From assembly GCA_024688885.1 (NCBI GenBank), contig JAILDV010000067.1, positions 62,001-126,000 on the forward strand: a DNA stretch of 64,000 nt, read 5' to 3'. The DNA comes from Bacteroidaceae bacterium (GTDB taxonomy: Bacteria > Bacteroidota > Bacteroidia > Bacteroidales > Bacteroidaceae). The stretch's first letter is position 1; every line of letters begins with the position of its first letter. The notes beneath the pieces are model-generated. The model saw only the letters and a list, made by a program, of their open reading frames with translations. It did no database searches and was not told the DNA's origin. This document shows positions 32,893-44,602 of this stretch, piece by piece. A program made the translations under genes and the position numbers.

Positions 32893-33002
32893 AGTTGACA
32901 ATTGACAGTTGATAGATTCATCGTCCATCGTACATCTTACATCGTCCATCGTACATCTTACATCGTCCATCGTACATCCTACATCGTCCATCGTACATCT
33001 TT
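32891..33002. repeat. Heptamer array, including 21-bp units of three heptamers
   Basis: First GTTGACA, ATTGACA and GTTGATA. Then, from 32919, four 21-bp units, each read as CGTCCAT, CGTACAT and CTTACAT (one CCTACAT variant). The unit length is 3 x 7, so the array stays open in frame with the DUF2264 gene. It separates the lipoprotein gene from that gene. Confidence 0.85.
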
Positions 33003-35033: not shown

Positions 35034-36158
35034 ATGAGATTTAATGTTTCAAGTACCAGTCTCAGCAATCGCTTGCAGACGATAAGTAGGGTTCAGAGTT
35101 CAAAGAACGCTCTGCCAATACTCGATTGTATTCTTTTTGAGCTCGTTGATGGTGTGTTGAAGATGACGGCATCGGATAGCGAGACTACGATGGTGACAAC
35201 ACTGGAGGTGACGGATGCTGATGGTGAAGGAAAGTTCGCCATTGGTGCGAAGCAGCTCATCAGTTCGGTGAAGGAAATCTCGGAACAGCCCATCACGTTC
35301 CAGGTGGATCAAAACTCGTTTGCTATTGAGATCACTTATCAAAACGGTAAGTATAATTTGATAGGGCAGAATGGTTATGAGTTTCCTGTGTCCAGCAGCG
35401 TGAACGACTCTTCCCGCAACCTCTCCATTGATGCTCAGGTGATGTTTAATGGCATCAATCGTAGCCTCTTTGCTGCAGCAGACGATGAACTTCGTCCACA
35501 AATGAATGGTGTCTATTTTGACATGACTCAGGAAAGCATTACGTTTGTGGCAAGCGATGGCCATAAATTGGTGCGTAACCGTGTGTTCTCCGCTCATGTT
35601 GACGAACCATCAGCATTCATTTTGCCAAAGAAGCCAGCGCTCTTGCTGAAGGCTGTTCTTCCTAAGGCTGAAGGTGATGCTGTGGTGCGTTTTGATGACC
35701 GTAATGCAGAGATTCAATTGACTGATTATACAATCAGCTGTCGTTTGATTGAAGGTCGTTATCCCAACTACAATTCTGTCATCCCGACGGATAACCCATT
35801 CCGTGTGACAGCAGACCGTATGGCTTTCATCAGTGCTTTGCGCCGTGTGAGTGTATTTGCAAGCCAAAGCAGCGCACTCATCAAGGTGCATGTGGATCAA
35901 GGTACATTGACCGTTTCTGCACAAGATTTGGATTTCTCCACATCGGCAGAAGAACACATCATGTGCGATTACGATGGTACTCCAATGAGCATCGGCTTCA
36001 ATGGTCCATTCTTGATTGATGTGCTTAACAGCATCAACAGCAATGACATCATACTCGAGCTTGCTGATCCAAGCCGTGCAGGTGTCATCATGCCAGCAGA
36101 GCAAGAGGAGAGTGAAGACCTCATCATGCTGCTGATGCCAATGATGCTGAAAGACTAA
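35034..36158 (+). CDS. dnaN: DNA polymerase III sliding clamp (beta subunit)
   Basis: The product is 374 aa from ATG 35034; the TTG at 35028 is rejected because the family starts with MRF/MKF. Three clamp domains follow one another: LQTISRVQSSKNALPILDCILFEL, then FVASDGHKLVRNRV in domain 2 and the C-terminal LADPSRAGVIMPAEQEESED. The ring holds polymerase III on DNA. No dnaA, recF or gyrB is adjacent, so this is not the usual oriC-type neighbourhood. In Bacteroidetes dnaN is often near coaBC, as here. A hairpin terminator separates it from coaBC. Confidence 0.97.
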   Translation: MRFNVSSTSLSNRLQTISRVQSSKNALPILDCILFELVDGVLKMTASDSETTMVTTLEVTDADGEGKFAIGAKQLISSVKEISEQPITFQVDQNSFAIEITYQNGKYNLIGQNGYEFPVSSSVNDSSRNLSIDAQVMFNGINRSLFAAADDELRPQMNGVYFDMTQESITFVASDGHKLVRNRVFSAHVDEPSAFILPKKPALLLKAVLPKAEGDAVVRFDDRNAEIQLTDYTISCRLIEGRYPNYNSVIPTDNPFRVTADRMAFISALRRVSVFASQSSALIKVHVDQGTLTVSAQDLDFSTSAEEHIMCDYDGTPMSIGFNGPFLIDVLNSINSNDIILELADPSRAGVIMPAEQEESEDLIMLLMPMMLKD

Positions 36159-36174
36159 AAGGAATACTCACAAA

Positions 36175-36216
36175 GAAAGCTGCCCTTCCTGTATGGTGGA
36201 GGGGTGGCTCTTTTTA
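36175..36216 (+). terminator. Terminator between dnaN and coaBC
   Basis: AAGCTGCCCTTCC pairs with GGAGGGGTGGCTC, with G-U pairs, and is followed by TTTTTATC. It lies just upstream of the coaBC ATG, so some read-through is likely. Confidence 0.65.
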
Positions 36217-36227
36217 TCAATAGGTAT

Positions 36228-37442
36228 ATGCTACAAGGAAAGAAAATAGTGCTTGGCATCACGGGCAGTATTGCTGCCTACAAGTCATGTCTCATTATCC
36301 GCCAACTTATCAAGAAAGGGGCAGAGGTGCAGGTGGTCATCACGCCAGCAGGCAAGGAGTTCATCACACCCATCACTCTTTCTGCTCTGACGAGCAAGCC
36401 TGTCATCAGCGAGTTTTTTGCTCAGCGCGATGGCACGTGGCACTCTCATGTCGATTTGGGTTTGTGGGCTGATGCGATGCTGATAGCTCCTGCTACGGCA
36501 TCCACCATTGGCAAGATGGCAAATGGGGTGGCAGACAATATGCTCATCACCACTTATCTGTCGATGAAAGCGCCTGTTTTCATTGCTCCTGCCATGGATT
36601 TGGACATGTATGCACATCCTTCCACACAGCAGAACCTGAAAACCTTGCATTCATATGGCAACCATATCATAGAGCCAGGCACAGGTTTCTTGGCATCGAA
36701 ATTGGAAGGCAAGGGACGAATGGAAGAGCCTGAAAACATTGTGGCTCGTTTAGAGCAGTTCTTTGCTCAGCAAGAGAGCGCTTTCCTATCAAGCAGTATG
36801 AATGGCAAGAAGGTACTCATTACAGCTGGTCCCACCTACGAAAAGATAGATCCTGTCCGTTTCATCGGTAACTATTCATCGGGCAAGATGGGCTTTGCCT
36901 TGGCAAACGAATGTGCCGCTCGTGGTGCTCAAGTTGAATTGGTTTGTGGTCCTGTCTCATCTTCCATGCAAGTGACACATCCGAACATCCATCGCACCAA
37001 TGTGGAGAGTGCCCGCGAGATGTATGAGGCATGCAAAGCATTGTATCCATCGATGAATTCAGCCATTTTATGTGCTGCTGTTGCCGATTATGCTCCTGAG
37101 CATACAGCAGAACAGAAGATTAAGAGAACGGCGGATGATATGGTCATTCGCTTAAAGCCCAATCCTGACATCGCCGCTTCATTAGGTCAAATGAAGCAAC
37201 AAGGGCAGACACTTGTCGGTTTTGCGCTTGAAACCAATGATGAGGAATCGAATGCGCAAGCCAAGCTGAAGAAGAAAAACTTCGATTTCATCGTGCTAAA
37301 TAGTCTCAAGGATGAAGGCGCAGGATTCCGTACCGACACGAATAAAGTCACCATCATCACTGCTGAGACAAAAAAAGACTACCCCCTCAAGAGTAAGGAG
37401 GAAGTAGCCAAGGATATTGTTGACGAGTTGGAACGTCTTTAA
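36228..37442 (+). CDS. coaBC: Bifunctional phosphopantothenoylcysteine decarboxylase/synthetase
   Basis: The product is 404 aa from ATG 36228; an upstream GTG at 36204 lies inside the terminator. The CoaC half (about 1-180) starts KKIVLGITGSIAAYKSC and has WHSHVDLGLWAD (active-site His) and PATASTIGKMANGVADN for FMN. The CoaB half contains KVLITAGPTYEKIDPVRFI, GNYSSGKMG and NPDIAASLG. Together they convert 4'-phosphopantothenate and cysteine to 4'-phosphopantetheine for CoA. In relatives it is followed by DUF4835 and recN. Here those genes come 4.5 kb later, after a minus-strand cassette. Its stop overlaps the convergent cassette gene by 4 bp. Confidence 0.96.
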   Translation: MLQGKKIVLGITGSIAAYKSCLIIRQLIKKGAEVQVVITPAGKEFITPITLSALTSKPVISEFFAQRDGTWHSHVDLGLWADAMLIAPATASTIGKMANGVADNMLITTYLSMKAPVFIAPAMDLDMYAHPSTQQNLKTLHSYGNHIIEPGTGFLASKLEGKGRMEEPENIVARLEQFFAQQESAFLSSSMNGKKVLITAGPTYEKIDPVRFIGNYSSGKMGFALANECAARGAQVELVCGPVSSSMQVTHPNIHRTNVESAREMYEACKALYPSMNSAILCAAVADYAPEHTAEQKIKRTADDMVIRLKPNPDIAASLGQMKQQGQTLVGFALETNDEESNAQAKLKKKNFDFIVLNSLKDEGAGFRTDTNKVTIITAETKKDYPLKSKEEVAKDIVDELERL

Positions 37443-38026
37443 TTTCCCTCTTTCAGAATCATGTCGATAGCTGCTGCAACAGATGCAATGGCTATGCGTG
37501 TGTTTTCATCAGTCACACTTGGCTCGATGTTGACAGCATATTTATCTGCTGTGGTGAAGAGTTCCTTTGCCATTCCATTCCATTTCTTGTCCACTGTGCC
37601 AATCTGCTGACCTGCAGCATCGGTGATTTCGAAATTCCATGCCTTCCAGTCACCCTTGATGGTGGCGATTTCCTGTCCCATATTGTTGAGGATGGTGAAT
37701 TTAGGTTTCAGCAAAGAAAACTTCTGTTTGAAATAACCGATGGGTGCACCTGCCTCGTTGAAGATTTGCACCTTCGACATGAACAAGGTCAAACCGCGCT
37801 TCAGTTGTGCGATGCATTTGCCGTCAGCGTTCAAGATGTTGAGTTCAAAAGGCACCATGCCCTTGCTCAGCACAAAGTCAAGTAAGATGTAAGTAAAGGG
37901 TTTGTGCTCTTGGATGGCACCAATTTCCTGTCCTTCTCCATTGTACACCTTATAGGCATTGGAGAGTTTGAAAGCAGCGACTTTCTCATCAATGACGAAC
38001 GTGTTGTTAGAAAAGAATTTGTCCAT
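37439..38026 (-). CDS. LURP-one/phospholipid-scramblase-like (tubby fold) protein
   Basis: The product is 195 aa with no signal peptide. The sequence is a series of short strands with Gly turns, such as YKVYNGEGQEIGAIQE, KPKFTILNNMGQEIATIKGDW and the diagnostic GTVDKKWNGMAKELFTTADKYAV. This pattern is typical of LURP-one-related/scramblase-like 12-strand barrels. Proteins of this fold bind lipids or act at membranes; the role of bacterial versions is unclear. It is the last gene of the caspase-thioredoxin-caspase run, 23 bp after caspase A, and converges with coaBC with a 4-bp overlap. Confidence 0.8.
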   Translation of the reverse strand: MDKFFSNNTFVIDEKVAAFKLSNAYKVYNGEGQEIGAIQEHKPFTYILLDFVLSKGMVPFELNILNADGKCIAQLKRGLTLFMSKVQIFNEAGAPIGYFKQKFSLLKPKFTILNNMGQEIATIKGDWKAWNFEITDAAGQQIGTVDKKWNGMAKELFTTADKYAVNIEPSVTDENTRIAIASVAAAIDMILKEGN

Positions 38027-38049
38027 GTTGTTCTTGAATTTAAAGGTTA

Positions 38050-39024
38050 TTATTTCTTGGAAATGCTCATATAGCGCATGCCATGTTGGGTGTTCTCACA
38101 TGAAGTGGTCTTTCTTCGTGCCGATTCGATGGCATTGTCAACGAGTCGTTGCCAATTTGGAGCTTCTGTTTGGGTGGCACTTGCCTCTTTGCGCAGTTGC
38201 GCAATGAACGATTGGGTGAAGGCACTCCCAGTTCCGTCAAAAGACCAGGCATATTCACCTGGTTTGGCAGCAGTGGCAAGGATGACTCCCTTTGTACCCA
38301 GAAAGAGCTCTTGCATCCTTTTCTTGCTCACCCGTGTATTGGTGCGGCTGTAGAGCGTGTTCTCTTTCTGTCGTGGTCCATATTCGCCAAATTTGGAGTT
38401 GCAGCAGTCGGTGATGACCACGCTCAAACGTGCTCCCTTCGCTTTGATGGCGTTGTAGATGTCAGTGGTGGCCACATAATTCCCATACACATCATCCTCG
38501 GGTCCTATCATGCAGATGTTGGGGTACATGTCCTTTTGGTCATCCCATCGAAATCCATGCCCGTTGAAACAGAAGAAGACGATGTCGTTTTGGGCGGGTT
38601 TCAAATTGGAGATGGCATTGGCAAGATTGCGCTTGTTGTAGGCTCTGTTGGCGGTGATGTTGGTGATGCTCACCTCGATGCCCAGACACTGTGTAATGGC
38701 TTTCAGTTCCTTATTAAGTGCCAAGTTGTCATACGCATCATCTTCACCGATGTTTTCATCATAAGTGTCTGCCACAAGGATTGCCCACATCTTGCAAGAT
38801 GCATTGTTGATAGTGTTGGTGGGTCGTGTGTTGACCTTCCCGTTGCTGCCTCCTTGCACAATGGCTTTGCCCATTGTCTCCTCATCCTCCTCAGCCACGT
38901 AGAAAGACTGGTATTCTGCTTCCTGTTCTGCATCGGAGAAGGAAGCCAGTGTGTCAGCGCTTTCTTGAGCATGTGCAACAGAGGCTATACAAAACAATAA
39001 TATGAATACGAATGGAGACCTCAT
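38050..39024 (-). CDS. Exported caspase-family (C14) cysteine protease A
   Basis: The product is 324 aa. The signal peptide MRSPFVFILLFCIASVAHAQ is cut near residue 20. An acidic, disordered stretch follows (residues 28-70). The caspase fold begins KMWAILVADTYDENIG (78-93). His156 lies in CFNGHGFRWDD and the likely nucleophile Cys208 in VVITDCCNSKFG; Cys207 is its direct neighbour. The C-terminus is NTQHGMRYMSISKK, matching caspase B. Such C14 proteases cut after Arg/Lys or Asp; specificity cannot be read here. The gene starts 3 bp after the thioredoxin gene, so they are coupled. Confidence 0.9.
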   Translation of the reverse strand: MRSPFVFILLFCIASVAHAQESADTLASFSDAEQEAEYQSFYVAEEDEETMGKAIVQGGSNGKVNTRPTNTINNASCKMWAILVADTYDENIGEDDAYDNLALNKELKAITQCLGIEVSITNITANRAYNKRNLANAISNLKPAQNDIVFFCFNGHGFRWDDQKDMYPNICMIGPEDDVYGNYVATTDIYNAIKAKGARLSVVITDCCNSKFGEYGPRQKENTLYSRTNTRVSKKRMQELFLGTKGVILATAAKPGEYAWSFDGTGSAFTQSFIAQLRKEASATQTEAPNWQRLVDNAIESARRKTTSCENTQHGMRYMSISKK

Positions 39025-39027
39025 AGT

Positions 39028-39609
39028 TTATAACATTTGCTGAATCATCTTGTCAAATTCCTCCTGCGATTGGGCACCGCTGTTCATCTGGATGTCTTCG
39101 CCGTTGCAGAAGAAGATGGTGGGAAGTCCGTCAATTCCATAGAGTTGCATCAACTCCTCGTTCTCGTCAGCGTTGACCTTATAGAACTGCACCAATCCCT
39201 TATACTTCTTTGCCAGAGCCTTCATGTAGGGGTCGATTTGCTTGCAGTAGCCACACCAGTCAGCCCAGAAATCAACCACACAAGGACCTTGGCCAATATA
39301 GGTGTCATAGTTTTTCTTTGATGCCACCAACTGATAGAACTGCTTCGCATTGATGGGACGGCAAGTGCCATCTCCCCAGTTGGCTGGCACTACAATGGTG
39401 CTCTCCTCTCCTGGTGCCACGTTGTCGTTGCTTGCATTGTTGTCCATCTCCTCTTCGTCCTCGTAATACTCATCCGAGCTTTCCTCCTCATACTCTTCCG
39501 TTTGCGATTCTTCATCGAAGTCCAGGCAACCACCCACACAAGTGACTATACCTACAAGGACAAAAAGGGCTAAGATGATGCCCAACGCAATTTTGATGAT
39601 AAGTTTCAT
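39028..39609 (-). CDS. Membrane-anchored thioredoxin with acidic linker
   Basis: The product is 193 aa. Residues 4-25 are a strong hydrophobic segment (LIIKIALGIILALFVLVGIV). Cys28 in VGGC could be a lipobox cysteine followed by acidic residues. Residues 31-60 are almost all Glu/Asp/Ser/Tyr. The thioredoxin domain spans about 85-193, with WADWCGYCKQ (active Cys119 and Cys122) and cis-Pro163 in DGLPTIFF. It should act as a reductant or isomerase outside the cytosol. The gene lies between two caspase genes, 13 bp after caspase B and 3 bp before caspase A. The linker carries VAPGEES, echoed in caspase B. Confidence 0.9.
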   Translation of the reverse strand: MKLIIKIALGIILALFVLVGIVTCVGGCLDFDEESQTEEYEEESSDEYYEDEEEMDNNASNDNVAPGEESTIVVPANWGDGTCRPINAKQFYQLVASKKNYDTYIGQGPCVVDFWADWCGYCKQIDPYMKALAKKYKGLVQFYKVNADENEELMQLYGIDGLPTIFFCNGEDIQMNSGAQSQEEFDKMIQQML

Positions 39610-39622
39610 ATGCTAATCGTTT

Positions 39623-41014
39623 TTATTGTTTGATTCTAATCATTTTCATTCCATGCTGCGCCTTTGTGTTTGCATTATTCTGAGATTTGGCAGTTGCAGC
39701 AGTCAGTGCATCTGTCACCAAGGTCTCCCAATCGGGCAGTTGGGTTGAGAGTGCACTGATTTGAGCGCGCAGGCTTTCCAACAGGCTCAACGTGAAAAAG
39801 CCGCCATTCACGCCACACCAAGACATCTCTCCCGGACTTGCAGCAGTGGCAATTAAGCTACCGTTGGCATCTACAAATAGCCGTTCCAGTTTCTTGACAT
39901 CAAAGTTGTTGTTTGAACGTGAGAACAGCGTGCTGGTATTGATGATTGGCGTGGTTTCTCCTATCTGGTTGTTGCAGCAATCGCTGAACACAAGGCTCAG
40001 TCGCGCCCCTTTCCCCACCAGTTCCTTGTACACGTCGCTGACAGCCACATAATTCTTTGTGGGGTCGTCATAGCTGGTTGGGCAGAGATCCATGTTGGGG
40101 TAATAGTCCTGTTGGTCGTCAAAACGGAATCCATGTCCTGTATAGACGAAGATGACCACATCATCGCTATTAGGTTGGAAATTACGTATCAGTTGTGCAA
40201 GATTGTCCTTGCTGTAGTTCTTTCCTCTGATGCCCTTGAAATCATACTTCATGCCCAGCACCCTCGCAATGCCTCCAAATTCGCTGTTGAGATTCACCAA
40301 ATCCTTTGCGCAAGCAGAACCAATGTCGCTCACGTTGGTGTTGGCAACAACAATCAAGTGCAAGGTTGGTGCAGCATCAGCACTTCCGGTTCCTAATGTG
40401 TTCCCTCCCTCTCCAGGAGCAATGTTCTCCCCTTCGTTGACAGGTATGTCGGGATCATTCTCAATGTCAGTAAATATTGGGTCGTCCACTGTCACCTCAA
40501 TGTCTTGGTGCGGCACGTTTTGATTCTTCACCAGTTGGATGCCGTTGAGCATCATCCTATATTCGGGTTCATCCTCCCCGTAGAATTGGGAGATGTATGT
40601 TTCATCCATACTCTCAAGACTGATTTCGTTGAAATATTCAGTCTCAATATAGCTGTTGGTCTTTTTGATGTTGTAGGTGACAAAGGGTTTCTCGCTGATG
40701 TCACTCGCATCGTCTTTTTCCCAAAACCACAGGAAGACAGGGAATTTCTTCTCCACAGGATAATAAGCCATGATGCCCACATCCTCCTCGTCGCTCTTCT
40801 CCTCAATCATGTTCAGGTACGGTGATTCGAAAACCGTGCCAGCCTCAAGTGATTCTGGTGTGATGAGACGCATCTTACAGTTGTCGTCACTGTAATAAAT
40901 CATCAATCCGAGATACTCCACTCCGTTGTCCGTGTAGTTCACCTCGTAGAACGTTTGTGCCTGCAGCGAGAGTGTGAGGCACAGCAACAGGAAAAAGGTC
41001 TGTAATCTTCGCAT
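39623..41014 (-). CDS. Exported caspase-family (C14) cysteine protease B
   Basis: The product is 463 aa from ATG 41014. A TTG 17 codons upstream lies in a terminator stem and is rejected. The signal peptide is MRRLQTFFLLLCLTLSLQAQ. Residues 21-170 form a separate strand-rich domain (FYEVNYTDNGVEYLGLMIYY), which may be a recognition or inhibitory part. A linker (171-215) with ENIAPGEGGN leads to the caspase fold. His294 lies in YTGHGFRFDD and Cys347 in FSDCCNNQIG, next to Cys346. The end TKAQHGMKMIRIKQ resembles caspase A, so the two are paralogues. It leads a tight run with the thioredoxin, caspase A and LURP-one-like genes. Confidence 0.9.
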   Translation of the reverse strand: MRRLQTFFLLLCLTLSLQAQTFYEVNYTDNGVEYLGLMIYYSDDNCKMRLITPESLEAGTVFESPYLNMIEEKSDEEDVGIMAYYPVEKKFPVFLWFWEKDDASDISEKPFVTYNIKKTNSYIETEYFNEISLESMDETYISQFYGEDEPEYRMMLNGIQLVKNQNVPHQDIEVTVDDPIFTDIENDPDIPVNEGENIAPGEGGNTLGTGSADAAPTLHLIVVANTNVSDIGSACAKDLVNLNSEFGGIARVLGMKYDFKGIRGKNYSKDNLAQLIRNFQPNSDDVVIFVYTGHGFRFDDQQDYYPNMDLCPTSYDDPTKNYVAVSDVYKELVGKGARLSLVFSDCCNNQIGETTPIINTSTLFSRSNNNFDVKKLERLFVDANGSLIATAASPGEMSWCGVNGGFFTLSLLESLRAQISALSTQLPDWETLVTDALTAATAKSQNNANTKAQHGMKMIRIKQ

Positions 41015-41030
41015 AGCGTGAAAAAGTCTG

Positions 41031-41076
41031 AAAAAAATGAAGAAAGTTTGCTTGCTCTTCAGCAAACAAACTTTCC
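41031..41076 (-). terminator. Terminator between small lipoprotein and caspase B genes
   Basis: On the minus strand GAAAGTTTGTTTGCT pairs over 15 bp with AGCAAGCAAACTTTC (one G-U), loop GAAG, followed by TTCATTTTTTT. The caspase B ATG lies about 20 nt after the T-tract and no promoter box is visible between them. Confidence 0.85.
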
Positions 41077-41129
41077 CTTGTAAGCTTGATAGCTTTGTTC
41101 GTTATGTCTGAGATGACAATTCGCAGGAA

Positions 41130-41342
41130 TTATTCCTCAACGAAAGCTTCTACAGAGTCAACTGCTGCATCGAGTGTGTCGAGAGCTGCGTTAGCTTCGT
41201 CAAGCTCTGCATTTGCTGAATCAGCAACTGCTGCGAGAGAGTCTGCTGCCTTCTGGATTTCGTCGAGCTGGCCAGCACAACCGTTGCAAGAAGCGAATGA
41301 AATGGCAACGAGTGCCATAGCTGCGAAAAGAATCTTTTTCAT
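41130..41342 (-). CDS. Lpp-like small helical lipoprotein
   Basis: The product is 70 aa. The lipobox is FASC with Cys19. After NGCAG the mature protein is one continuous Ala/Asp/Leu-rich helix with heptad spacing (LDEIQKAADSLAAVADSANA, then ELDEANAALDTLDAAVDSVEA). This recalls the coiled-coil Braun lipoprotein of Enterobacteria, but it lacks the terminal Lys for peptidoglycan attachment. It ends in FVEE. It could coat or brace the envelope. It is probably co-transcribed with the TM2 gene 67 bp upstream and stopped by the terminator at 41031-41076. Confidence 0.78.
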   Translation of the reverse strand: MKKILFAAMALVAISFASCNGCAGQLDEIQKAADSLAAVADSANAELDEANAALDTLDAAVDSVEAFVEE

Positions 41343-41409
41343 AATGCTTTTTTTGTTAAATGTTACTTTTGCTTTTACTTATAAAAAACACCGTTTTGTT
41401 GGTGAGAAA

Positions 41410-41628
41410 TTACATGAAGAACTTCTTAGCTTCAACACGTGCCTGGAACTGCTCGTCAGTGTCCATCAGATAGATGATACCCTCAATCAGACCAAGGATG
41501 CTTGGAATACCAGTCCAGCAAAGCAGGATGTAAACTACGCCTGGCATTACGTTGCCCATGTAGAACTTGTGGATACCGATGCCACCAACCAGGATTCCGA
41601 GAATACCTGCTACCATTTTATTTTTCAT
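41410..41628 (-). CDS. TM2 domain membrane protein
   Basis: The product is 72 aa. Two transmembrane helices (KMVAGILGILVGGIGIHKFY and MPGVVYILLCWTGIPSILGL) are joined by the short YMGN turn, as in TM2 proteins. A charged tail DTDEQFQARVEAKKFFM follows. TM2 proteins are common and poorly understood; some link envelope sensing to other domains. It is the first gene on this strand after the promoter box at 41737-41744. Confidence 0.88.
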   Translation of the reverse strand: MKNKMVAGILGILVGGIGIHKFYMGNVMPGVVYILLCWTGIPSILGLIEGIIYLMDTDEQFQARVEAKKFFM

Positions 41629-41736
41629 AACTCAATTGTTTTTCTCGCGGTTGAGAAATCGTTTTAAGTTTTTATTTTAGTGCACAGATGAACCGCCATC
41701 TGGCACCTTTTTATTAATTCTGATTAGTTTCCGTTG

Positions 41737-41744
41737 CAAAAGTA
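41737..41744 (-). promoter_or_regulatory. -7 element upstream of the TM2 gene
   Basis: TACTTTTG on the minus strand, 108 bp before the TM2 ATG. No TTTG is seen at -33. Confidence 0.5.
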
Positions 41745-41899
41745 CAAACTTTTTTATTTAAATAAAAAGAAAAATGAAGAAAATCTTCCACAAAATGATG
41801 AAAAATAGTGGAAAGGAAACATGAAACAACTATTTGTGAAACATGGAAAGCCTATCTGAATTCCTCACTTTGCTAAAAAATCAAAAAGCGAGGCAATTA

Positions 41900-41931
41900 T
41901 TTGGGTAAGTCGTGAGAAAGTAGTACTTTTG
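41900..41931 (+). promoter_or_regulatory. Promoter of the DUF4835-recN run
   Basis: TTTG (41900-41903) and TACTTTTG (41924-41931) have a 20-bp spacer. It gives DUF4835-recN a promoter separate from coaBC. Confidence 0.75.
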
Positions 41932-41957
41932 CCGAAAAATAGGGAAAAAGTATTTGT

Positions 41958-42878
41958 ATGTGCCGTCTTTTGAACAGATTAACCATCCTTTTGGCTGCGA
42001 TTCTGTGGTGCTCCTCAGCCACTCGTGTTGAAGGGCAGGAACTGAATTGCACCGTCAAGGTCATCCATTCCCAGATACAAGGCACCAGCACCAGCGTGTT
42101 CGAATCGTTGGAGAGTGCCGTCAGTGAGTTCATGAACAACCGCTCATGGACAGAGTTGCAGTTCCAGAAGTCGGAGCGTATTGACTGCAACTTGAGCATT
42201 ACGGTCAAGAAATACAATGCCTCAAACGACGCATTCACTTGTGAGCTACTTTTTCAGGTCACACGCCCTGTCTTCAATTCGGGCTACAACACCGTGGTCT
42301 TCTCCATGCGCGACACCGAGTTCACCTTCACCTATCAGGAACAGGATGCGCTCGAATTCAACGTCAATAACATGGACAACAACCTGACGGCGATGCTGGC
42401 ATACTACGCCTATCTGTTCATCGGGTTAGATTTAGACACATTCTCCCCCATGGGCGGAACGGAAGTGCTGCATGTGGTGGAAAACATTGTGAACAGTGCA
42501 CAAGCCATGTCTGAACCAGGTTGGAAAGCCTTTGACAAGACCAACAATCGCCACGCCATCATCGACGACTACATGGATTCCTCTATGGAGCCATTCCGTC
42601 AGATGCAGTATAAGTTTTACCGTCAAGGGCTCGATGAAATGGCACAAAATCCCGATCGTGGCCGCACCGCCATCACTGAGGCGCTTGAGTTGTTGAAAGA
42701 GGCGAAAAGCAACAAGCCCCTCTCGCAGCTTCCTCAGATATTTACCGACTTCAAGCGCGATGAACTCGTCAATATCTATTCCGGACACGGCACTGAGAAG
42801 GAGAGACAGGCGGTGTATGAAATCCTCGCTGACATCAATGCCAGCCAAAACACCTATTGGAACAAGATTAAGAAGTGA
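41958..42878 (+). CDS. DUF4835 (PorD-like) exported protein
   Basis: The product is 306 aa. The signal peptide ends about residue 27 (ATRVEGQ). DUF4835 landmarks are QELNCTVKVIHSQIQGTSTS (about 27-46), FMNNRSWTELQF, RPVFNSGYNTVVFSMRD, MLAYYAYLFIGLDLDTFSPMGG and the final QNTYWNKIKK. PorD, its relative in Porphyromonas, is needed for type IX secretion, and DUF4835 proteins usually follow coaBC. Here it is cut off from coaBC by the minus-strand cassette but still precedes recN by 53 bp. A type IX role in this organism is inference; no other por gene is in the window. Confidence 0.88.
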   Translation: MCRLLNRLTILLAAILWCSSATRVEGQELNCTVKVIHSQIQGTSTSVFESLESAVSEFMNNRSWTELQFQKSERIDCNLSITVKKYNASNDAFTCELLFQVTRPVFNSGYNTVVFSMRDTEFTFTYQEQDALEFNVNNMDNNLTAMLAYYAYLFIGLDLDTFSPMGGTEVLHVVENIVNSAQAMSEPGWKAFDKTNNRHAIIDDYMDSSMEPFRQMQYKFYRQGLDEMAQNPDRGRTAITEALELLKEAKSNKPLSQLPQIFTDFKRDELVNIYSGHGTEKERQAVYEILADINASQNTYWNKIKK

Positions 42879-42891
42879 CAGCATGAAGGAA

Positions 42892-42921
42892 TGACAAGCG
42901 AAAAAGTGACAAGTGAAAAAG
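42892..42921. repeat. Two 15-bp direct repeats before recN
   Basis: TGACAAGCGAAAAAG is followed at once by TGACAAGTGAAAAAG, then TGAAG. They fill most of the 53-bp gap before recN. Confidence 0.75.
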
Positions 42922-42931
42922 TGAAGCATCA

Positions 42932-44602
42932 ATGATACGTCATCTGCATATAGAAAACTACGCGCTGATTGAACATCTCGACATGGATTTCCACACGGGT
43001 TTCTCCGTTATCACGGGTGAGACGGGTGCCGGAAAGTCCATCATTCTTGGCGCCATCGGTTTGTTGTTGGGACAACGGGCAGACTCCCGTTCCATCAAGG
43101 GCGATGCCAAACGATGTGTGGTCGAAGCGGTTTTCGATATATCCCATGCCCCTTTGGATGAGTTCTTTCAGGAGAATGACCTCGATTCTGATGGAAAGGA
43201 GTGCATCATTCGCCGTGAACTCACATCGGCAGGCAAGTCGCGTGCCTTTATCAACGACACCCCCGCCTCGCTTGCGCAACTGAAGGAATTGGGCGAACAG
43301 TTGCTCGACATCCATTCCCAGCACAAGAATCTTCTCTTAGGCAAAGAGGACTTCCAAATGAGTGTGCTCGACATTCTTGCAGGGCATCAGGAACAACTTG
43401 CCACCTACAAAGACGAATACAAAGAATTCCGTCGCCTCGAAAAGCAGTTGGAGGAAGCCCTGGAAGAGGCGAAGAGTGGCAAGGAAGACGAGGATTATCT
43501 GCGTTTCCAAGTGAATCAACTCGCAGATGCCAACTTGCAGGAAGACGAGCAGGAAGCACTGGAGGAAGAGGCTGAGACACTAGAACATGCCGAAGACATC
43601 AAGTCCTCCCTCTACTCATCAGCCGCTCTCCTGCAATCTGCAACAGACGGCACCGACGTGCTCGGTTTGCTCAAGCAGACCCTTTCGTCCATCCAATCTG
43701 TTTCATCTGTTTATCCCGCTTCGGAAGAACTTGCAGAACGTCTCGATTCCTGCTATATAGAACTGAAAGATGTGGCGAATGAGTTGGAGAATCGAGCTGA
43801 AGATGTCGAGTACAATCCCCAACGTCTTGAGCAGGTGAACGAGCGTCTGAACACCATCTACACCTTGCAGAAAAAGCATGGAGTGGAGAGCATTGCCGAG
43901 TTGCTGGAGATACAACGGAAGATGGAAGAAAAGTTGTCGCGCATCACCCATTCGGATGAGTATATCGAGGAGCTTGGCAAATGTGTGGATGCTCAAAAAA
44001 CTAAATTGCTGACATTGGCTGAAAACCTTTCACAATCGCGCATTCAAGCTGCGAAGGGGGTGGAAAAAGAAATGGAAAAACGACTGCTTCCATTAGGCAT
44101 GCCAAACGTGCAGTTCAAGTGTTCTGTCATTGCCAATCCAGAAGAGCTTACACCCTCAGGATATGACCAAGTGCAGTTCCTTTTCAATGCTAACAAGAGT
44201 GGGAGTCCCAAGCCTGTCAGCCAAATCGCATCGGGTGGCGAAATTGCCCGTGTGATGTTATCGCTCAAGGCACTCATTGCCGGTGCGATCAAGTTGCCCA
44301 CTATCATCTTCGACGAGATTGATACGGGTGTGAGCGGTTCTATTGCAGAGAAGATGGCACGAATCATGAAGGAGATGGGTGAAAAGGATCGTCAGGTTAT
44401 CTCCATCACCCACCTGCCACAAATTGCCGCTCTTGGCACCCACCATTATAAAGTCTATAAGGAAGAGTCGGCAAATGACACGCTGAGCCATATCATCCCA
44501 TTGAACGACGAGCAGCGCATCGAGGAGATTGCCTGCATGCTCAGTGGAGAACACCTTACGCAAGCTGCGCTCGACAATGCCAAAACCCTGTTAGGAAAAT
44601 GA
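42932..44602 (+). CDS. recN: DNA repair ATPase RecN
   Basis: The product is 556 aa. It is an SMC-like protein: Walker A GETGAGKSIILG (29-40), a long coiled-coil middle (about 165-370), then the signature SQIASGGEIARVMLSLKAL and Walker B TIIFDEIDTGVSG. RecN assists double-strand-break repair by recombination. It starts MIRHLHIENYALIEHLD, the usual family start. It overlaps the next gene by 4 bp (44599-44602). Confidence 0.97.
   Translation: MIRHLHIENYALIEHLDMDFHTGFSVITGETGAGKSIILGAIGLLLGQRADSRSIKGDAKRCVVEAVFDISHAPLDEFFQENDLDSDGKECIIRRELTSAGKSRAFINDTPASLAQLKELGEQLLDIHSQHKNLLLGKEDFQMSVLDILAGHQEQLATYKDEYKEFRRLEKQLEEALEEAKSGKEDEDYLRFQVNQLADANLQEDEQEALEEEAETLEHAEDIKSSLYSSAALLQSATDGTDVLGLLKQTLSSIQSVSSVYPASEELAERLDSCYIELKDVANELENRAEDVEYNPQRLEQVNERLNTIYTLQKKHGVESIAELLEIQRKMEEKLSRITHSDEYIEELGKCVDAQKTKLLTLAENLSQSRIQAAKGVEKEMEKRLLPLGMPNVQFKCSVIANPEELTPSGYDQVQFLFNANKSGSPKPVSQIASGGEIARVMLSLKALIAGAIKLPTIIFDEIDTGVSGSIAEKMARIMKEMGEKDRQVISITHLPQIAALGTHHYKVYKEESANDTLSHIIPLNDEQRIEEIACMLSGEHLTQAALDNAKTLLGK

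Follow-up and report, generated by a model that had tools for sequence, protein, structure and literature searches.

A conserved caspase-thioredoxin-caspase gene trio of a Bacteroidaceae genus as a possible redox-dependent protease pair of the envelope

What holds two caspase genes and a thioredoxin gene together at one place in a bacterial genome, and could their products act as one system? This question is raised by a locus in a Bacteroidaceae bacterium (assembly GCA_024688885.1, contig JAILDV010000067.1, positions 62,001 to 126,000 of the forward strand; this whole stretch of 64,000 nucleotides is called the window in the following). Here, six minus-strand genes encoding a TM2-domain protein, a small lipoprotein, a first caspase (caspB), a thioredoxin (trx), a second caspase (caspA) and a scramblase-like protein lie between coaBC and the pair porD (DUF4835) and recN, which are on the plus strand. 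A first-pass annotation had described this arrangement as one module, and the list of open reading frames (ORFs) bore out all of the genes and strands. The conserved unit is the trio caspB-trx-caspA and not the six genes. We propose, at a probability of roughly 0.42, that the trio may be a redox-dependent protease pair of the envelope with its own reductase, the action being predicted. Directly read from the sequences are the apparent export signals, the anchor, the catalytic dyad, the conserved order, the extra cysteines, the basic sites and a shared motif, and from structure models the likely fold. The features of the trio are as follows.

39623 to 41014, minus strand: caspB, a putatively exported C14 caspase of 463 residues counted from the ATG at 41014 (Pfam, alignment), with a signal peptide ending in ..LQA¦Q, an N-terminal beta-rich domain, a disordered acidic linker and the catalytic domain; the ORF spans 39623-41065 and the ATG at 41014 is its probable start
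40409 to 40426, minus strand: codons of the linker motif N-I-A-P-G-E of caspB
40135 to 40133, minus strand: codon of the catalytic histidine of caspB
39979 to 39974, minus strand: cysteine codons of the DCC of caspB
39028 to 39609, minus strand: trx, with an N-terminal hydrophobic anchor (by eye), an acidic linker and a thioredoxin domain with WCGYC (Pfam)
39406 to 39423, minus strand: codons of the linker motif N-V-A-P-G-E of trx
38050 to 39024, minus strand: caspA, a putatively exported C14 caspase of 324 residues (Pfam, alignment), with a signal peptide ending in ..AHA¦Q and a pro-segment with conserved Lys/Arg
38559 to 38557, minus strand: codon of the catalytic H156 of caspA
38406 to 38401, minus strand: codons of C207-C208 of caspA

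Relatives were compared in a genus set of 45 genomes, in which 30 coaBC-porD loci (the interval or parts of it) were mapped; the sources named for nine of the genomes include yak omasum, buffalo rumen, sheep rumen and horse faeces. A caspase profile matched in 17 of the 45. Nine genomes, the window's own included (G000, G029, G032, G023, G036, G020, G018, G022 and G040), have TM2, caspB, trx, caspA and scramblase beside coaBC in identical order, and in a tenth carrier, G038, the contig end falls within caspB. Since the order caspB-trx-caspA-scramblase recurs beside coaBC in 9/45 genomes, the conserved unit is more than chance. The trio is also found at unrelated places in G002 and G003, where neither scramblase nor TM2 occurs among the genes listed. 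The caspase-thioredoxin-caspase order, which the first-pass annotation proposed to look for in relatives, was recovered both at the site and away from it.

The same comparison did not uphold the view of all six genes as one co-inherited module. Scramblase and TM2 are beside coaBC without caspases in six genomes (G043, G007, G012, G010, G006 and G015), and together with the lipoprotein, again without the trio, in two more (G030 and G041). The lipoprotein is present in five of the ten coaBC-site carriers, the gap being too short to hold it in the other five, and a terminator-like hairpin sets the TM2 and lipoprotein genes apart. As a core member, the scramblase was rejected, since it stands at the site without caspases in these eight genomes and is absent beside the trio of G002 and G003. 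The ratio of nonsynonymous to synonymous substitution rates (dN/dS) was 0.035-0.13 for four of the six genes and for coaBC and porD; these values were obtained against two or three relatives (G023, G036, G022) and are rough, since dS exceeded 1 in all pairs other than one trx pair that gave no estimate.

Both trio caspases are well supported as C14 peptidases. Pfam Peptidase_C14 is matched at E 1.4e-15 by caspB and 3.9e-14 by caspA, and the two scores (53.3 and 58.1 bits) lie above the curated cut-off of 21.4. The two proteins are paralogues with 40% identity over 253 aligned positions, and a third caspase paralogue is encoded elsewhere in the window's genome (G000:C13:3403-4686). At the expected signal-peptidase site, A19 and Q20 are invariant in all 18 aligned caspA and caspB sequences. 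This Ala-Gln end of the signal peptide is consistent with the Q-rule for signal-peptide cleavage in Bacteroidetes, as given in the accessible text of PMC5837995 and PMC10653852. The earlier suggestion of one exported unit, made of two caspases with signal peptides and a membrane-anchored thioredoxin, is supported, with its conserved order.

The His-Cys catalytic dyad is invariant in 15/15 and 18/18 aligned caspases (His and both Cys in the 18), and is present in 52/52 of a larger set that had been preselected by the pattern GHG/GNG...D[CSA][CS]. The structure models, which are of moderate confidence, support a caspase fold, with Foldseek E values of ~1e-8 and MALT1 as the first match for both models, followed by metazoan caspases; mean pLDDT (predicted local distance difference test) was 62 for caspB and 68 for caspA, and TM-scores on the query were 0.3-0.45. 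In the case of caspB, residues 165-213, i.e. the linker, have a pLDDT below 50. Its N-terminal domain had no Pfam match, and the 50 listed Foldseek matches, being caspases or MALT1, gave no fold for it. A profile search of solved structures returned one short weak stretch to caspase-3 p12 (E 0.09). The caspase-3 strand SWR, with what we take to be the S1 arginine, reads WS or WC in caspA and caspB, placing Ser or Cys at this position, so that Asp specificity appears unlikely. Orthocaspases cleave after positively charged residues, according to the available part of PMC6426788. Against the EACC1-associated caspase model NF047832, the two proteins scored 39.2 and 24.9 bits, under the cut-off of 140.

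In a tree of 52 catalytic domains, the A-type caspases form one group with support 1.0, whose 13 members all belong to this genus; five loci (L101, L103, L104, L106 and L107) were dropped from this tree by choice, and L102, L172 and others were removed by the filter on catalytic residues. Wider surveys, which scored up to four candidates in each genome, gave a profile match at 1e-10 in 24 of 399 genomes of the family (genus members included) and at 1e-30 in 13 of 393 genomes of the order. Among the family and order loci placed in the tree, no A type was found beyond the genus. The unplaced loci score 5.5e-36 or weaker, except for G712 (2.8e-82), which has the B-type N-terminal part. This B-like caspase of G712 (L172, 7019-8431), outside the set of 52, has GHG and no D-x-C, and may lack the catalytic cysteine. 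Elsewhere in the order, exported caspases (L182, L178, L099, L179 and L180) stand in different recurring gene sets, the L182 caspase with forkhead-, phosphatase- and kinase-like genes close by (names by eye).

The partnership with the thioredoxin can be followed through the genus. Wherever caspA was found (13 genomes), caspB is present too, and in 11 of these 13 trx lies between the two. Relatives of trx at E 1e-22 occur in 12/45 genomes, namely the 11 just mentioned and G009, and WCGYC is present in all 11 listed relatives. In G001, the caspA domain is fused to an anchor resembling that of trx, with an alignment score of 106 compared with 52 for the highest of 2,000 shuffles. In G025 (L080, 9422-10015), caspA is followed by a cysteine-rich, lipoprotein-like protein of 197 residues, which has no Pfam match and ends in N-V-A-P-G-E. 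Furthermore, five cysteines in addition to the catalytic pair are conserved in caspA (in 12, 11, 13, 12 and 13 of 13 members), and none of these positions is a cysteine in 13 caspB or 7 third-paralogue sequences.

At the residue level, the pro-segment of caspA and the linkers of caspB and trx differ in charge. The pro-segment of caspA has 3-4 Lys/Arg at conserved places in the nine complete coaBC-site carriers. The last 39-47 residues of the caspB linker have no Lys/Arg in eight of these nine and one in G018; the trx linkers of the same genomes have 0-1 Lys/Arg and 17-22 acidic residues. In addition, caspB and trx, which are unrelated proteins, share the linker motif N-[IV]-[AM]-P-G-E, and both carry it in all nine complete coaBC-site trios. 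A DNA pattern for N-[IVM]-x-P-G-E matched 58 times in the 45 genomes, compared with 18 for the reversed pattern. Module proteins account for 21 of the 58: 18 in the nine trios, one each in caspB of G038 and G001, and one in the 197-residue protein of G025. In the window's own genome, the only matches are those in caspB and trx. When the linker columns were permuted with their composition kept (eight of the nine genomes, the near-duplicate G029 being left out), the observed sharing of 5.25 was reached in none of 5,000 permutations (null mean 2.36, maximum 4.00).

From these elements the following mechanism could be put together. Both caspases would be exported by Sec, and the thioredoxin would be anchored to the inner membrane, its domain presumably lying outside the cytoplasm. 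There it may keep cysteines reduced, those of the active sites and most importantly the additional ones of caspA, so that the caspase pair would work only while thiols are available. Judging from the caspase family, cleavage after Lys/Arg may be expected, and caspA would probably be activated by cleavage at the conserved Lys/Arg of its pro-segment. The linkers of caspB and trx should survive such cleavage, because they are acidic and nearly without Lys/Arg. The shared N-[IV]-x-P-G-E may then be a common docking or processing site, bringing caspB and trx to one partner. As first substrate candidates we would name the C10 peptidases encoded beside related caspases.

Several observations weigh against this proposal. 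Why hosts that are presumably anaerobic would need a reductant is not obvious. The three genes do not always occur together: G025 carries both caspases and lacks trx, caspA and caspB of G001 are on different contigs, and G009 has trx without any caspase found. Having extra cysteines does not by itself set the partner of the thioredoxin apart, since caspB (13/13) and the third paralogue (7/7) have two conserved cysteines of their own, which are absent from caspA. Losses of the A-specific cysteines do not track the presence of trx, as G025 and G001, both without trx, have lost one each and G002, which has trx, has lost two. As regards the motif, 37 of the 58 pattern matches lie elsewhere in the 45 genomes; 26 of these were translated and fall in unrelated proteins or non-coding-looking stretches, one of them being the lipoprotein tail of the caspase-free G010 and G012. 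The motif is absent from trx of G002 and G003, and since it was picked after inspection, the permutation test is partly dependent. Finally, a search of the window and of 22 trio-type loci for C10 relatives gave none.

The best surviving of the competing explanations, which we nevertheless judge unlikely, is that these are secreted digestive or housekeeping proteases. The caspases would process or activate C10 peptidases and other exported proteins in protein breakdown or envelope turnover, and the thioredoxin would be a general reductase sharing the operon by chance. The neighbours of related caspases speak for it. The third paralogue was detected in 11 genomes by score, and a C10 peptidase gene adjoins it in 8/8 loci searched; in the window's own genome (L084, 1587-5427) it stands between a C10 peptidase with Inhibitor_I69 (both Pfam) and an Lcl_C protein below threshold. 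We take peptidases with C10 and Inhibitor_I69 to be of the streptopain/interpain kind. B-type caspases have such neighbours as well: after the G130 caspase comes a C10 peptidase with two copies of the motif N-x-x-P-G-E in its tail, and the caspases of G292 and G207 have a C10 gene two to three genes upstream. On the other side, C10 relatives were found neither in the window and the trio-type loci nor in six loci where other families have B-type caspases (L171-L176), and this view offers no reason for the conserved position of trx.

We are somewhat more doubtful about a wider role of the motif, in which N-[IV]-x-P-G-E would serve a network of envelope caspases as its dedicated peptide signal. 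The caspase, the membrane thioredoxin, the C10 peptidase and the cysteine-rich partner would all carry it in disordered tails or linkers, and one reader protein, a caspase or its N-terminal domain, would recruit or process them under redox control. A second motif, D-[FI]-Y-G-N, was considered as a genome-wide tag and dropped, with three matches in the window's genome against two for the reversed control; stretches like it recur in the trx linkers of G002, G003 and G009 and in C10 peptidase tails.

Slightly less credible again is a loose association, i.e. a convenient operon without joint function, in which the motif would be flexible linker sequence favoured by composition. The separability of the genes in G025, G001 and G009, the coming and going of lipoprotein and scramblase among loci, and the occurrence of the motif pattern in unrelated proteins would all fit such a view. 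It accounts poorly for the trio keeping its order in three kinds of location (the coaBC site, G002 and G003), for a composition-keeping permutation that never reached the observed sharing, and for caspA never being found without caspB in 13 genomes. Least probable of all is a device for programmed death or killing of competitors, in which oxidative or other stress would set free envelope caspases that are lethal to the cell itself or to neighbouring cells. A redox trigger is available in the thioredoxin, and a surface or neighbour-cell role was suggested earlier for exported prokaryotic caspases (in the accessible part of PMC3501461), against which stand the lack of a convincing PADLOC anti-phage match among four of the six proteins scanned (best E 0.003, covering part of a model), the lack of relatives in phage and viral collections, and the low dN/dS across species.

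The redox-dependent protease pair being thus our preferred reading, its surroundings can be described more fully. The remaining features are the following.

36204 to 37442, plus strand: coaBC, left flank (ORF list)
37439 to 38026, minus strand: scramblase/LURP-one-related protein, without a signal peptide by eye, final gene of the run (Pfam)
41040 to 41077, minus strand: hairpin of 17 pairs followed by a T-run; terminator or attenuator after the lipoprotein and TM2 genes
41130 to 41342, minus strand: small lipoprotein, with a lipobox-like ASC by eye
41410 to 41628, minus strand: TM2-domain protein (Pfam)
41958 to 42878, plus strand: porD (DUF4835), right flank (Pfam, NCBIfam)
42932 to 44602, plus strand: recN, right flank

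Pfam labels hold for five of the six proteins of the run: besides the two caspases, trx matches Thioredoxin (1.1e-25), the last gene product Scramblase (9.9e-22) and LOR (3.9e-6), and the TM2 protein TM2 (8.9e-15). The lipoprotein has weak Pfam and NCBIfam matches, all under the cut-offs. The right-flank protein matches Pfam DUF4835 at 1.6e-108, and NCBIfam names it as the type IX secretion system protein PorD. No type IX C-terminal secretion domain was matched by Pfam or NCBIfam in either caspase at E 0.1; on these profiles porD is a neighbour only, and the caspases are without a type IX cargo domain. In eight of the ten carriers porD is next to the run, and in G022 and G040 another gene of ~1,100 residues stands there. 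In G041 (L068, 3827-4731), porD consists of two matched pieces, residues 1-79 (53% identity) and 86-306 (83%), perhaps by a frame break. Elsewhere in the window, at 32919-33001, a tandem array of about four 21-bp units (with a 7-bp subunit) lies at the start of an ORF of 486 residues.

The four genes from caspB onward had been described as only 3-23 base pairs (bp) apart, and the measured gaps agree: 13 bp between caspB and trx, 3 bp between trx and caspA, and 23 bp between caspA and scramblase. The 17-pair hairpin with its T-run stands 25 bp upstream of the caspB ATG and is kept in 10/10 coaBC-site carriers, with 14-15 of 15 inner pairs retained. Nearly all changes in its pairs are one-sided (G-T for A-T or G-C). 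The eight trio-free relatives that were folded as well all have strong hairpins of other sequence in the gap before scramblase. We therefore read the caspB hairpin plainly as a terminator, and reject it as a special element in view of the one-sided changes and the comparable hairpins in 8/8 trio-free relatives. Most simply, TM2 and lipoprotein would form one transcription unit, and caspB-trx-caspA-scramblase a second one, as far as the sequence suggests. Promoter-like sites of sigma-70 types, the only types searched, numbered 5 compared with 6.9 expected from shuffles, with none before caspB.

How the trio came to this site was considered next to its present order. In 16 of the 45 genomes coaBC directly adjoins porD (match ends at most 143 bp apart), the 45 including genomes with one gene not found or on another contig; this agrees with the earlier claim that coaBC is directly next to DUF4835 in relatives. 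In G009, TM2, trx and scramblase are beside porD (L207, 1234-1818 and 2238-2468), the scramblase being read by eye in a frame translation and coaBC being on another contig; a caspase was found there neither at the locus nor by profile. In a tree of coaBC, porD and recN (44, 38 and 37 sequences, as not all three genes are in each genome), the coaBC-site carriers fall in one group, with the trio-less G030 and G041 nested within and G009 outside; key supports are low (0.42-0.92). This tree fits one gain followed by loss, and exchange is not separable from gain plus losses. G030, G041 and G009 imply that loss or exchange belongs to the history of the locus. Accordingly, the first-pass annotation's phrase that a module 'entered here' can be kept as an insertion relative to the direct coaBC-porD state, and has to be amended by loss or exchange. 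A mobile-element origin is unsupported: no flanking duplication is in the repeat listing of 36000-43000, no relative turned up in viral contigs or phage records, and the five matches in plasmid records all have less than 30% identity. Among eight proteins scanned with Pfam, there was no integrase or transposase.

To our knowledge, exported prokaryotic caspases have almost no established function. The fixed partnership of caspase and membrane thioredoxin, the cysteine set of caspA's own and the shared linker motif turn this gap into a testable question, namely whether gut bacteria have, outside the cytoplasm, a caspase cascade under redox control and whether it feeds into C10 peptidases. Literature searches showed no caspase-thioredoxin operon in bacteria among the listed titles and abstract openings of open-licence papers, several listings giving the best of many, in line with the initial impression that no described system is involved.

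Compared with known systems, the trio caspases share with MALT1 paracaspase and the metazoan caspases, the top Foldseek matches of both models, an identity of 9-17% in the listed matches. The C10 peptidases with Inhibitor_I69 are encoded beside relatives of the trio caspases, and one shares the tail motif, without being trio members. Operons with more than one metacaspase are on record, 20 of them in four groups including Bacteroidetes (PMC3501461), so that phylum and multiplicity of caspase genes are as in the trio; in the main text of that source the word thioredoxin is absent, and the parts available showed neither the trio order nor the anchor or the linker motif. The same source records prokaryotic forms with an N-terminal helix, maybe a signal peptide. 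With the prokaryotic caspase homologues (orthocaspases or bacterial metacaspases, Peptidase_C14), the trio caspases have in common the C14 domain, the GHG...DCC dyad and, by model, the probable caspase fold. Unlike these proteins in general, they form a pair of A and B types with a membrane thioredoxin between them, and the B type has an N-terminal beta-rich domain.

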